NCBI RefSeq assembly: GCF_001613405.1
Contig: NZ_BDCH01000019.1
Coordinates: 248,001 to 312,000, forward strand
Origin: Nocardia crassostreae
GTDB taxonomy: Bacteria > Actinomycetota > Actinomycetes > Mycobacteriales > Mycobacteriaceae
Reading direction: 5' to 3'
DNA length: 64,000 nucleotides
Under the pieces are notes generated by a model. The model saw nothing but the letters and a program-made list of their open reading frames with translations, did not search any database and had not been told where the DNA came from. Both the position numbers and the translations under genes were made by a program. Shown in pieces: positions 44,557-64,000 of this stretch (within the stretch, counting starts at the first letter, position 1; each line of letters opens with the position of its first letter).

Positions 44557-45930
44557 GTGAACGAGTTGGGGACTACGGTGTGCGTTGCTGGGGGTGGGCC
44601 CACCGGGATGATGTTGGGGCTGTTGCTGGCTCGCGCCGGTATCGAGGTTGTCGTGCTGGAAAAGCATGCCGACTTTCTGCGCGACTTCCGGGGGGACACC
44701 GTGCACCCGGCCACCCTCGATATTCTGGACGATCTCGGGCTCATCGAGGATTTCCACGCGCTGCCGCACCAGCGGGTCTCCACCATCGGCGTGATCCAAG
44801 GCGGGCGACGGGTCGACATCGCGGATTTCCGGATGTTGAAGCTGCGCTATCCGTATATGGCGTTCGTGCCGCAGTGGGACTTCCTCACGCTGCTGGCTCG
44901 AGCGGCGCAACGCTATCCGACCTTCCGGCTCATCATGAATGCCGAAGTGGTCGATGTGCTCCGCGCGGGCGAACGCGTCGCCGGTGTGCGCGTGCGCGGA
45001 CCCGGTGGCGAATTCCTGGTGCGGTCCACTCTCACCGTGGGCGCCGACGGCCGCCACTCGGCGCTGCGCCGCGCAATGGGTATGGCCCCCAAGGACTTCG
45101 CGAGCGCCCTGGATGTGATCTTCTTCCGGATCTCGCGTCGCGACAGCGATCCGGACGAGGGCATCTGCGTGCGGATCGGGAATGGCAAGGTCTTCGGCGC
45201 CACCGACCGCGGCACGTACTGGCAGCTGTCCTACGAGACCACTCGCGGCACGTACGACCGATTACGCGGCACCGATCTGGCGCAATTCCGCGCGGATCTG
45301 GCGCAACTGGTGCCGTTCCTGGCCGACCGGGTCGGCGAGATCGGCGGCATCGACGATCTGAACCCGCTCGAATGCCGGATCGACCGGCTCCCGTCCTGGC
45401 ACCGCCCGGGCATCCTGTTCCTCGGCGATGCCGCGCACGCCATGTCCCCGGTCGCCGGATTCGGCGTCAATCTCGCCGTTCAGGACGCCGTCGCGGCGGC
45501 CAACGCACTCTGGCGGCCGCTGCGCGACACCCAGGAATCAGGCGTGGCCTTCGATCACGCGATCCTGGCCGCGGTGCGCCGCCGACGTCTCGCCGCCACG
45601 GCGATGTCCCAGGGCCTGCAACGGCTGGTGCAGCGCTTCGGCATCGACAGCGCCCTGCGCGACGGCGGAAAGCCGAGAGCCCCGGTGATTTTCGAGCGGG
45701 CACCAATTCTGCGGAAGGCGATGAGCCGGATCATCGGCACCGGATTCCGGCCCGAGCACGTCCACACACCGCATATCGGAAAGGAACAAACAGGTGTTGG
45801 AGAAAGTAGTGATCGTCGGCGGCGGGACGTCGGGATGGATGACGGCGTCGTACCTCTGCGCCGCCTTCGGCGACCGGATCTCGGTGACCTTGGTCGAATC
45901 CGAACAGGTCGGCCGGATCGGCGTCGGTGA
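44557..45930 (+). CDS. FAD-dependent aromatic monooxygenase (PHBH-like)
   Basis: 457 residues from GTG 44557. The FAD motif [17 protein letters not shown] is near residue 10, the DG-type motif [15 protein letters not shown] near residue 165 and the second FAD motif [22 protein letters not shown] near residue 290. This is the class A flavoprotein hydroxylase layout. It probably hydroxylates or epoxidises an aromatic or indole intermediate. The last 46 codons overlap the halogenase gene in another frame, so the true end of the conserved protein is near FRPEHVHTP. It is the first gene of the plus-strand biosynthetic operon. About 320 bases upstream carry no gene except the DUF3592 fragment. Confidence 0.82.
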
Positions 45931-47332
45931 AGCCACATTCAGCACCGTCCGGCACTTCTTCGAGTACCTCGGCCTGGCCGAATCGGATTGGATGCCCGCC
46001 TGCAACGCCACCTACAAACTGGGCATCCGATTCGAGAACTGGCGCGAGCCGGGCCATCACTTCTACCACCCGTTCGAACGGCAGCGCGTGGTCGACGGCT
46101 TCAGCCTGACCGAGTGGTGGCTGCACGACCCCACAACCACCCGGTTCGACAGCGACTGCTTCCTCGTCGGAACCCTGTGCGACAACCAGAAATCCCCGCG
46201 CTACCTCAACGGTGCGCTGTTCCAGGAGGCCATCGCCGAGGAGGGCCTGCGGCGCACCACGCTCACCGAGCAGCGCACCCAGTTCCCCTACGCCTACCAT
46301 TTCGACGCCGGTCTGCTGGCGGACTTCCTGCGCGACTACGCCGTGCGCCGCGGCGTCCGGCACGTGGTCGACGATGTGGTCCACGTCGATCAGGACGAGC
46401 GCGGCTGGATCGGCTCCGTGCGCACCCGCGGCCACGGTGAGCTGACCGGTGATCTGTTCATCGACTGCACCGGATTCCGCAGCCTGCTCATGCAGGGCAC
46501 GCTCGGCGAACCGTTCGAGTCCTATCAGGACAGCCTGCCCAACGACCGCGCGGTCGCACTGCGCGTGCCGGTCGATATGGAGCAAGCCGGACTGCGGCCC
46601 TACACCACCGCGACCGCGCAGGACGCGGGCTGGATCTGGACCATTCCGCTGTTCGGCCGCATCGGAACCGGTTACGTCTACTCGGGCGACTACTGCGACG
46701 CCGACACGGCCGAGCGCACACTGCGCGCCTTCGTCGGCCCGGCCGCGGATGACCTGGAGGCCAATCACATTCGCATGCGCATCGGCCGCAGCCGCCGGTC
46801 CTGGGTCGGCAATTGCGTGGCGGTGGGCCTGTCCAGCGGTTTCGTCGAACCGCTGGAATCGACGGGCATCTTCTTCATCCAGCACGCGATCGAACAACTG
46901 GTGAAACACTTTCCGGACCGGAGCTGGGACGAGAACCTGCGCGACTCCTACAACGGGCTGGTCGCCCGATGCATGGACGGCGTCCGCGAATTCCTGGTGC
47001 TGCACTACTACGGCGCGGCGCGCGCCGACAACCACTACTGGCGCGACACCAAGCGGCGCGAGATCCCGGACGAACTCGCCGAGCGGATCGAGCGCTGGCG
47101 CACCAGACTGCCCGATGCCGAATCGGTGTACCCGCACTACCACGGCTTCGAGCCGTACTCCTACGTGTGCATGCTGCTCGGCCTCGGCGGCATCCGATTG
47201 CAGGCCTCACCGGCCCTGCGCCTGCTCGACGACCGGCCCGCCCGGCGCGAATTCGCCCGGGTGGCCGCGCAGGCGCACAGCCTCCGGGAGTCGCTGCCCA
47301 CCCAGCACGAGTATTTCGCGCAGTTCCACTGA
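45794..47332 (+). CDS. flavin-dependent tryptophan halogenase family protein
   Basis: 512 residues from GTG 45794 behind AAAGGAAC. The halogenase fingerprints are present: [11 protein letters not shown] (FAD), the catalytic Lys in [14 protein letters not shown] near residue 75, WIWTIP near residue 278 and the catalytic Glu in [10 protein letters not shown] near residue 355. Length and [17 protein letters not shown] in the C-terminal part fit enzymes acting on free tryptophan or an indole rather than a carrier-bound substrate. It uses FADH2, oxygen and chloride or bromide; the neighbouring flavin reductase should supply FADH2. Position of halogenation cannot be decided by eye. Confidence 0.88.
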
Positions 47333-47342
47333 GGGAGCGACC

Positions 47343-62679: not shown

Positions 62680-63413
62680 AGCTGGGTACCACCGTCCACG
62701 ACGATGGTCTGCCCGGTGATGTACCCGGCCCCCGCGGAATGCAGGAAGGCGACGACGCTGGCGACATCGCCGGGAACGCCCAACCGGCGCAATGAGATCG
62801 ACGAGGCCAAGCGCTTGCGCTGGGTTTCGCCGAGTCCGGCGGTCATATCGGTGTCGATGAAGCCCGGCGCGACCGAATTGACCCGCACCCCCGATCGGCC
62901 CACCTCCTTGGCCAGGGACCGGGTGAACCCGTCCAGACCGGCCTTGGTGGCGGCGTAGTTGACCTGCCCCGGATTCCCGTGCAGGCCGGAGATGCTGGAG
63001 ATGTTGGTGACGACGCCGAATCCGTTCCGCATGGCCGGATACACGAATTGTTTTGTCACGTTGTATGTTCCGGTCAGATTTGTGTCCACGACGTCGTCCC
63101 ATTTCTCGTCGGTCATGAGAGCGAGCGGTCCGTCCCGTGTCACGCCCGCGCAGTTGACGAGATCGGTGACCACGCCCGCCGTCCGGGCAATGCGCGCGAA
63201 TGTCTCGGCGACCTGCGCCCGATCGGTCGTATCGCACACCACGAGGGAATTACCCGGATCGGCGGCGCGCAGGCGGTCCTCGACGGCCATCGACGAATCC
63301 GAGTGCCGGGCATGCAGTCCCACCGTCAGATAACCGGCCTGGGCCAGCTCGCAGATGATCGCCGCGCCGATTCCCCGGGAGGCGCCGGAGACGACCGCGA
63401 CCCGCCGGGTCAT
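62676..63413 (-). CDS. 3-oxoacyl-ACP reductase (FabG-like SDR)
   Basis: 245 residues. The cofactor motif is VSGASRGIGAAI at the N-terminus, NCAG occurs near residue 88, and the catalytic residues are in NISSISG (Ser) and NYAATKAG (Tyr, Lys). The end GQTIVVDGGTQL is typical of FabG. It should reduce each 3-oxo intermediate. With the two dehydratases but no enoyl reductase in sight, the expected chain is unsaturated at each module. Confidence 0.87.
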   Translation of the reverse strand: MTRRVAVVSGASRGIGAAIICELAQAGYLTVGLHARHSDSSMAVEDRLRAADPGNSLVVCDTTDRAQVAETFARIARTAGVVTDLVNCAGVTRDGPLALMTDEKWDDVVDTNLTGTYNVTKQFVYPAMRNGFGVVTNISSISGLHGNPGQVNYAATKAGLDGFTRSLAKEVGRSGVRVNSVAPGFIDTDMTAGLGETQRKRLASSISLRRLGVPGDVASVVAFLHSAGAGYITGQTIVVDGGTQL

Positions 63414-64000
63414 GCCGCCGCCACGGGAACCAGCACCCAGTCGAGATGCCGTAGCACGGAATCGATCTCACCGGCGTCGGCGGGATTCGCCACGGCCGCG
63501 ATATGACCGTCCGGGCGCACCAGCACCAGCTTCGGGCCGTTGACGCGATACGCCGCATAGGCTGCGGTCTCCCACCGCGGCAGCACATGGGAGGTGACCG
63601 CGGACGCGTACCGGGTGGCGAGCAGATCGGCCAGTTCCCCGGCCCGTGCGCAGTCGTCCACATCGAAAAACAGTGCGTGGTAGCCGGTTCCGTGCGTCAG
63701 GTCGAGCACGCTGCGCGCGCGGTCCGGATTGTCGGCCAGCGGCGCGTAGGGTGCGCGATCACCCGGCTGCGGGCCCCGCCCGCCCGCGGTCGCAATGGCG
63801 GGACTGTCCCGGTAGGAGATCCACAATTGGGAGAACAGCTGGAAGAACAGTCGCCGCACCGGCGCGAGCCGACTCACGATGCCGAGGAGCCTCGTGGCGA
63901 CATGGGCGCGCATCCACACGGCCACGGGATCGGTGGCGGTCTCGAGTTTGAACCCGATATCGGTGCGCGCGAGCACGGTCGCCGCGATCGGGCGGCGTTC
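63410..64000 (-). CDS. FAD aromatic monooxygenase (PheA/TfdB family), C-terminal part
   Basis: The gene enters from the right edge; about 196 C-terminal residues are seen. ERRPIAATVLARTDIGF is the last helix of the FAD domain. It is followed by the long linker helix and a thioredoxin-like domain ending KLVLVRPDGHIAAVAN. This resembles the end of the RebC-like protein at 53593. It overlaps the FabG start by ATGA, so it is in the same operon, and the cluster continues to the right of the window. Confidence 0.8.
   Translation of the reverse strand, partial: ERRPIAATVLARTDIGFKLETATDPVAVWMRAHVATRLLGIVSRLAPVRRLFFQLFSQLWISYRDSPAIATAGGRGPQPGDRAPYAPLADNPDRARSVLDLTHGTGYHALFFDVDDCARAGELADLLATRYASAVTSHVLPRWETAAYAAYRVNGPKLVLVRPDGHIAAVANPADAGEIDSVLRHLDWVLVPVAAA

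Follow-up and report, generated by a model that had tools for sequence, protein, structure and literature searches.

A predicted indolotryptoline gene cluster of Nocardia crassostreae carrying a polyene-type polyketide synthase operon

Here we describe a 64,000-nt stretch of the Nocardia crassostreae genome (contig NZ_BDCH01000019.1, positions 248,001-312,000; genome 8.29 Mb), hereafter the window, in which two gene blocks converge: tryptophan genes on the plus strand run toward a minus-strand operon encoding a 2-oxo acid dehydrogenase E1 pair, a β-ketoacyl-acyl carrier protein synthase III (KAS III) and a polyketide synthase (PKS). Judging from homology and synteny, the tryptophan genes are with near certainty the core of an indolotryptoline cluster of the cladoniamide/BE-54017 type, into which a polyene-type PKS operon appears to have been spliced. 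The best explanation of the whole locus, which we consider fairly probable, is that the indolotryptoline core is decorated through the inserted PKS and a nonribosomal peptide synthetase (NRPS) as a polyenoyl-serine conjugate.

The region examined runs from the left end of the window to 50 kb past its right end, 114 kb in all; we called genes across it and scanned 20 of the proteins against Pfam and NCBIfam. Gene starts are those of the automatic caller, apart from the X2 reading frame and the halogenase start, which were set by hand. Scanning genomes for homologs of the chromopyrrolic acid synthase (D) yielded 41 loci, with which the window proteins were compared by tblastn. One of these, locus L018 of Streptomyces uncialis, has called genes of 177, 278, 519, 561, 420, 1090, 421, 344 and 981 aa, in agreement with the lengths of ClaF, Y, O, C, P, D, X2, M3 and R in the published Cla table (PMC3158105, in excerpt). 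Because of this agreement L018 was taken as the cladoniamide cluster; its X1 gene was located by tblastn and is not among the called genes. The core genes of N. crassostreae are as follows, with identities to L018 unless otherwise stated and with the window numbering continued past its right edge.

44557-45807, plus strand: flavin monooxygenase, ClaX2/AbeX2 homolog (X2); NF004834, 507 bits; 67% to the 421-aa ClaX2 gene
45794-47332, plus strand: tryptophan 5-halogenase, ClaH/AbeH homolog (H); PF04820, 473.8 bits; its top match in the S. uncialis genome is 78% identical
47343-47855, plus strand: flavin reductase, ClaF homolog (F); PF01613; 60%
48198-51017, plus strand: LuxR-type regulator, ClaR homolog (R); 43% to the 981-aa ClaR gene at 99% query coverage
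50980-51810, minus strand: alpha/beta hydrolase, ClaY homolog (Y); 60% to the 278-aa ClaY gene at 82% query coverage
52088-53596, plus strand: L-tryptophan oxidase (amine/L-amino-acid oxidase), RebO/ClaO homolog (O); PF01593; 70% to the ClaO gene
53593-55218, plus strand: RebC/ClaC flavin monooxygenase (C); top Protein Data Bank (PDB) match RebC 2R0C, 679 bits; 70% to the ClaC gene
55215-56429, plus strand: cytochrome P450, RebP/StaP/ClaP homolog (P); 2Z3T, which we take to be StaP, is the one PDB entry matching at E<=1e-55 (400 bits); 59% to the ClaP gene
63410-65053, crossing the right edge of the window, minus strand: flavin monooxygenase, ClaX1/AbeX1 homolog (X1), at the head of the PKS operon; PF01494; 68%
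65318-66007, right of the window: methyltransferase, M1 homolog
66039-69290, about 2 kb right of the window: chromopyrrolic acid synthase homolog D of the VioB/RebD/ClaD family, 1083 aa; TIGR04492, 751.7 bits

D and the tryptophan oxidase O, which are required together in indolotryptoline clusters, are both found here, as are P and C, the indolocarbazole-forming pair, and X1 and X2, the markers of the pathway type. In the cladoniamide study, X1, X2 and Y are given as unique to the indolotryptoline pathway type, with X1 acting on the indolocarbazole (PMC3158105). The D homolog is 67% identical to its S. uncialis counterpart and also matched the ferritin-like model PF12902. The halogenase contains the W.W.IP motif, and its top PDB match, over the full length, is the tryptophan 5-halogenase 8FOV (902 bits; next match 791 bits), identified as AbeH, the producer of 5-chlorotryptophan, in the excerpt consulted of PMC11840605. 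It is thus an indole-type enzyme, as a preliminary description of the window had proposed; every other enzyme named in that description is likewise encoded about where it placed it, according to Pfam/NCBIfam models and motifs. The proteins of solved structure closest to the oxidase are general L-amino acid oxidases, and it reaches 24.9 bits against the VioA model, so its role on tryptophan is assigned from its S. uncialis counterpart, to which it is 70% identical.

An X1 homolog of at least 64% identity was detected by tblastn in nine of the 41 D-bearing loci: S. uncialis, S. adelaidensis, Kutzneria sp. CA-103260, three Lentzea, Nocardia sp. NRRL S-836, N. seriolae (L040 and L096-L097) and Mycobacterium sp. 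D16R12 (L020). Six further loci with weaker X1 matches (32-35%) were left out of this count. X2 was found in eight of the nine; for N. seriolae it lies in the wider stretch L097. The compared stretches of these loci reach up to 23 kb, five of the nine ending before the P450 is fully covered, and the genes of L020 were read from open frames instead of gene calls. In a tree of 26 D proteins, those of the window, N. seriolae and Mycobacterium sp. D16R12 form a clade (100/100) that nests inside the ten X1/X2 clusters (97/97). D homologs occur at E<=1e-60 in two of 401 sampled family genomes, that of N. crassostreae included. Two cladoniamide genes, claM3 (O-methyltransferase) and claT (antiporter), had no match at E<=1e-4 in the 114 kb; since L020, L040 and L096-L097 likewise gave no match to them, we treat them as accessory. 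A plain rebeccamycin/staurosporine type was ruled out by the X1 and X2 homologs and by the position of D inside the X1/X2 clade.

The second block comprises ten genes downstream of X1, all on the minus strand. Here KS denotes ketosynthase, CLF its chain-length-factor-like partner and ACP acyl carrier protein, and L162 is a locus of another family genome, G443.

56442-57386, minus strand: KAS III (FabH-like), last of the 11 operon genes; PF08545/PF08541; 54% to the KAS III of L162
57383-57658, minus strand: stand-alone lipoyl domain; PF00364, with the lysine in ETDKA; 58% to L162
57655-58632, minus strand: 2-oxo acid dehydrogenase E1 beta; PF02779/PF02780
58626-59537, minus strand: 2-oxo acid dehydrogenase E1 alpha; PF00676
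59531-60358, minus strand: CLF, Cys-less, 275 aa; top PDB match 6KXD_B
60358-61563, minus strand: KS; top PDB match 6KXD_A, 343 bits
61560-61832, minus strand: ACP; PF00550, with the serine in DSL
61880-62326, minus strand: hot-dog dehydratase 1 (DH1, FabA/FabZ-type); PF07977, FabZ models under their cut-offs
62323-62679, minus strand: hot-dog dehydratase 2 (DH2, FabA/FabZ-type); PF07977, ApeI-like model under its cut-off only
62676-63413, minus strand: ketoreductase FabG; NF009466, 237 bits (cut-off 222, passed); TIGR01830, 263 bits (cut-off 297.75, missed)

The catalytic motifs that we searched for are in place: TAC, HGTGT and GHT in the KS, AC.GF, GHQAN and ANTS (Cys-His-Asn) in KAS III, GDG...NN in E1 alpha and AES.I in E1 beta. 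FabG has PF13561 as its top Pfam model, which is described as an enoyl-ACP reductase and which we take to be a general SDR model. It is the sole reductase gene of the operon; no enoyl reductase (ER) gene was recognised there, the rest of the genome not having been searched. With a KS-CLF pair, ACP, ketoreductase and dehydratases but no ER gene, the operon looks like a type II PKS of the highly reducing (polyene) kind, an assignment supported by its gene content. The earlier suggestion of an E1/lipoyl/KAS III cassette joined to a dissociated polyene-type synthase therefore stands, the KS and CLF being nearest to chains A and B of 6KXD, which is presumably Iga11-Iga12. The operon has only one Cys-bearing KS, where a comparison with aryl polyene systems looks for a FabB-like second KS. 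Aryl polyene clusters carry aromatic starter genes such as an ammonia lyase.

Several features tie this operon physically to the core. Its order is X1, FabG, DH2, DH1, ACP, KS, CLF, E1 alpha, E1 beta, lipoyl domain and KAS III, all in one direction; the X1 stop overlaps the FabG start as ATGA, and neighbouring genes throughout the 11-gene operon overlap by 1-7 bases, the exception being a 47-base gap between DH1 and ACP. The PKS genes sit between the claP and claX1 homologs. P and X1 are adjacent in four clusters (S. uncialis, S. adelaidensis, Mycobacterium and N. seriolae), with matches 28 to 77 bases apart, and the P/X1 gene order differs in other X1 clusters. No PKS-side gene had a match at E<=1e-3 in the compared stretches of the nine X1 loci, nor were matches to the PKS operon genes listed at E<=1e-8 across the 41 D-bearing loci. 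Elsewhere in the genome, CLF relatives at E<=1e-8 occur in seven of 12 D-bearing genomes (at most 42% identity). Foreign base composition was rejected as a mark of insertion, the GC content of the operon (about 0.70) being similar to that of flanking genes.

Immediately beyond D lies an NRPS gene.

69360-73955 in continued window coordinates (L003:12360-16955): NRPS of condensation-adenylation-thiolation-epimerase-like (C-A-T-E-like) organisation, with two condensation-family stretches, an adenylation domain and a carrier domain

An NRPS follows D in three of the ten X1/X2 clusters (the window, N. seriolae and Mycobacterium sp. D16R12). The distribution of claM3 and claT is the opposite: neither was found in the three NRPS clusters, whereas both were found in the other seven, and no NRPS was seen in the compared stretches of those seven M3-bearing clusters. 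With code positions placed by eye at what we take to be the GrsA positions, the adenylation domains read DVWHFSLIHK in the window and DVWHLSLIDK and DVWHISLIDK in the relatives, and all three codes look serine-like. The adenylation domains of the N. seriolae and Mycobacterium enzymes contain, by eye, a methyltransferase-like insert that is missing in the window. The loss of N-methylation may accompany the gain of an acyl supplier. The last NRPS domain keeps the epimerase motifs FNYLGQ and HHxxxDG (HHLVLDG in the window) and carries Val in the window, and Ile in both relatives, where PvdL has the Glu of EGHGRE. The HHxxxDG and EGHGRE motifs hold catalytic residues of epimerisation. We infer that the NRPS module may place an acyl-serine on the oxygen that M3 methylates in cladoniamide. 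As a separate observation, an indolotryptoline cluster whose serine-type NRPS holds the methyltransferase-like insert is present in N. seriolae, a pathogen of fish (L040, L096-L097).

On this basis the likely product would be an indolotryptoline bearing a polyenoyl-serine group instead of the O-methyl, the linkage itself being conjectural. By homology and synteny, H with F would chlorinate tryptophan at C5, O would oxidise the chlorotryptophan and D would dimerise it to chromopyrrolic acid; P and C would convert this to the indolocarbazole, which X1 and X2 would oxidise and rearrange to the indolotryptoline, and M1 would N-methylate. On the PKS side, E1 alpha/beta may decarboxylate a 2-oxo acid and pass the acyl group to the lipoyl domain, from which KAS III would bring it to the ACP system by transfer or condensation. 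Its extension to a conjugated polyenoyl-ACP could then fall to KS/CLF, FabG and the two dehydratases, and the NRPS condensation domain could transfer the polyenoyl chain to serine. The Glu-less epimerase-like terminal domain may release the acyl-serine onto the oxygen otherwise methylated by claM3. More tentatively, and as a possibility that we regard as doubtful, the locus could be a three-system hybrid: a reduced dehydrogenase (E1 pair, free lipoyl domain and KAS III, with no E2 core in the operon) would start a polyene chain from a 2-oxo acid, the type II PKS would build it, a single NRPS module would link it to serine, and the Glu-less epimerase-like domain would transfer it to the chlorinated indolotryptoline hydroxyl, replacing the O-methyl.

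Relatives of the E1/lipoyl/KAS III cassette were sought in a sample of 394 class genomes and, for E1 alpha, in 150 genus genomes. E1 alpha had matches in 204 class genomes, its own included, and no other match at E<=1e-75 among the genus genomes. When the neighbourhoods of nine top E1 alpha genomes were viewed (some cut short at contig ends), only one, G443, had the whole cassette: KAS III, ACP, lipoyl domain, E1 beta and E1 alpha at L162 8533-11689, with 54-59% identity. Near it there is no KS/CLF match, and an amine-oxidase match (24%, 42 bits) lies about 18 kb away. The lipoyl domain was matched in 20 others among 148 genus genomes, in longer frames and at 40% identity at best, and had no match among plasmids. 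Plasmid matches to KAS III (318 records) are every one below 60% identity, and plasmid E1 pairs adjoin a full-length E2 in the two viewed of 708 records. Of the 394 class genomes, 32, this one included, have a CLF relative at E<=1e-10. The cassette was seen in none of the 22 KS/CLF loci compared (L095, L098-L115 and L173-L175; stretches up to 19 kb, 27 kb for L095). We also observed that L095 (Streptomyces plasmid, 1-26694) holds a Trp-type halogenase with polyene-type KS/CLF and NRPS genes, together with a flavin reductase, an antiporter and an anthranilate synthase; the combination of halogenase, KS/CLF and NRPS genes recurs in L109, and in L174 with L183.

Alternatively, two products could come from this locus: the core and the NRPS would make an indolotryptoline, and the inserted operon, linked to them only by its position and by use of the X1 promoter, would make an unrelated polyene acid or lipid. 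This is rather unlikely in our estimate, but it would account for the occurrence of the core without the operon in the compared stretches of nine other clusters and for the many different gene settings in which the 22 polyene-type KS/CLF loci stand. Against it, the operon is ATGA-coupled to X1 and lies mid-cluster, and none of its genes was recognised as encoding an enzyme that would release a free polyene acid. We favour a joining of the PKS to the core because of the X1/FabG overlap, the tight operon and the missing adenylation insert where an acyl synthase is present. The preliminary description had joined the two blocks in another way: E1 would decarboxylate (halo)indole-3-pyruvate to an indole-3-acetyl starter, which KAS III and KS/CLF would turn into an indolyl polyene. 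In its favour, one locus does hold both a RebO-type oxidase and the E1/lipoyl/KAS III cassette, but we now consider this route very improbable. The D homolog is there to take the imine, and a chromopyrrolic acid synthase just right of the window is what the preliminary description itself named as a finding that would speak against its proposal; the tryptophan genes are an indolotryptoline core that recurs in nine clusters with no PKS-side match in the stretches compared; X1, X2, M1, C and P would be left without a role; and no halogenase or D homolog matched in the roughly 34 kb around the nearest cassette found, that of G443. The carbazole-like route was set aside on the one ground that the core assignment leaves it no enzymes of its own.

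A polyenoyl-serine conjugate nonetheless has several observations to contend with. The D score of 751.7 bits is below the VioB equivalog cut-off of 1250, which fits the ClaD type and proves nothing. Four of the nine relatives' genomes have a CLF relative elsewhere (39-41% or less) or weaker matches, so absence from the cluster does not equal absence from the genome. The mutual exclusion of M3 and NRPS comes from one clade of the D tree; as the three NRPS clusters share ancestry, it perhaps reflects a single event. The NRPS lineage stands twice without a PKS beside it (L020, L040), and the condensation domain therefore need not use the window PKS. At 275 aa the CLF, which has a gap in its C-terminal half, is shorter than the top CLF matches of 18 loci (one per locus, 332-389 aa), and the KS carries Lys (Lys107) at the position of Iga11 Asp113. 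These two peculiarities mean that the PKS may differ in output from the polyene type or be degenerate. Finally, where the acyl group attaches, how it passes between carriers and which 2-oxo acid starts the chain are all inferred.

In the extreme case the inserted PKS would be a non-functional remnant and the strain would make a seryl indolotryptoline only. The short CLF speaks for such decay, as does the Lys, found in the window KS alone: the 18 other KS rows have D (nine), S (six) or N, G or A at that position. We nevertheless judge decay improbable, as all ten PKS-side frames are open and tightly packed and the searched motifs are intact. Moreover, second, weaker CLF-like proteins in ten of the 18 loci have 249-381 aa, so short forms are not unique, and Asp113 is not a constant feature of the polyene type, since nine of the 18 other KS rows lack it.

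Two papers (PMC12691628, PMC13252584) describe cladoniamides as inhibitors of V-ATPase that are under study as leads against microbes and viruses. No indolotryptoline joined to a polyketide was found in the open-access literature searched, and one with an acyl-serine side chain would on that basis be new. If our preferred reading of a polyenoyl-serine conjugate is correct, such a member would offer a gene-encoded way to vary the O-methyl position. With its built-in E1/lipoyl/KAS III cassette, the polyene-type PKS operon also opens a mode of chain priming to experiment. The epimerase-like domain, which lacks the Glu in all three NRPS clusters, may act in release or transfer. Elsewhere in the window, a 562-aa protein (32157-33845) has a start resembling that of a large serine recombinase, and a 754-aa protein (26989-29253) begins like a UvrA/DrrC-type ATPase, possibly for drug resistance, both by eye.

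Set beside known systems, the cluster is closest to that of cladoniamide (cla, S. uncialis), with H, F, Y, O, C, P, X1, M1, D and X2 homologs at 59-78% identity and R at 43%. It differs in that claM3 and claT are matched there and unmatched here, and in having an NRPS after D and an E1/KAS III/polyene PKS operon behind X1. The BE-54017 (abe) cluster was compared through AbeH alone, the closest relative of the halogenase. Borregomycin (bor) belongs to the same product class and also has a two-component tryptophan halogenase (PMC11840605, excerpt), but BorH (6UL2/8TTI) is a Trp-6 halogenase and scores 376 bits against the window halogenase, compared with 902 for AbeH. The operon resembles the ishigamide PKS (Iga11-Iga12) in its KS/CLF, its ketoreductase and dehydratases and the lack of a recognised ER gene, and differs in its E1/lipoyl/KAS III cassette, short CLF and KS Lys in place of Asp113. 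The cassette itself recalls the two-carbon loading of quinocarcin and naphthyridinomycin, where an E1, a lipoyl/ACP protein and KAS III reportedly load a two-carbon unit that feeds an NRPS; like those systems the window has an E1 pair, a lipoyl carrier and KAS III, but here they stand in a type II PKS operon.

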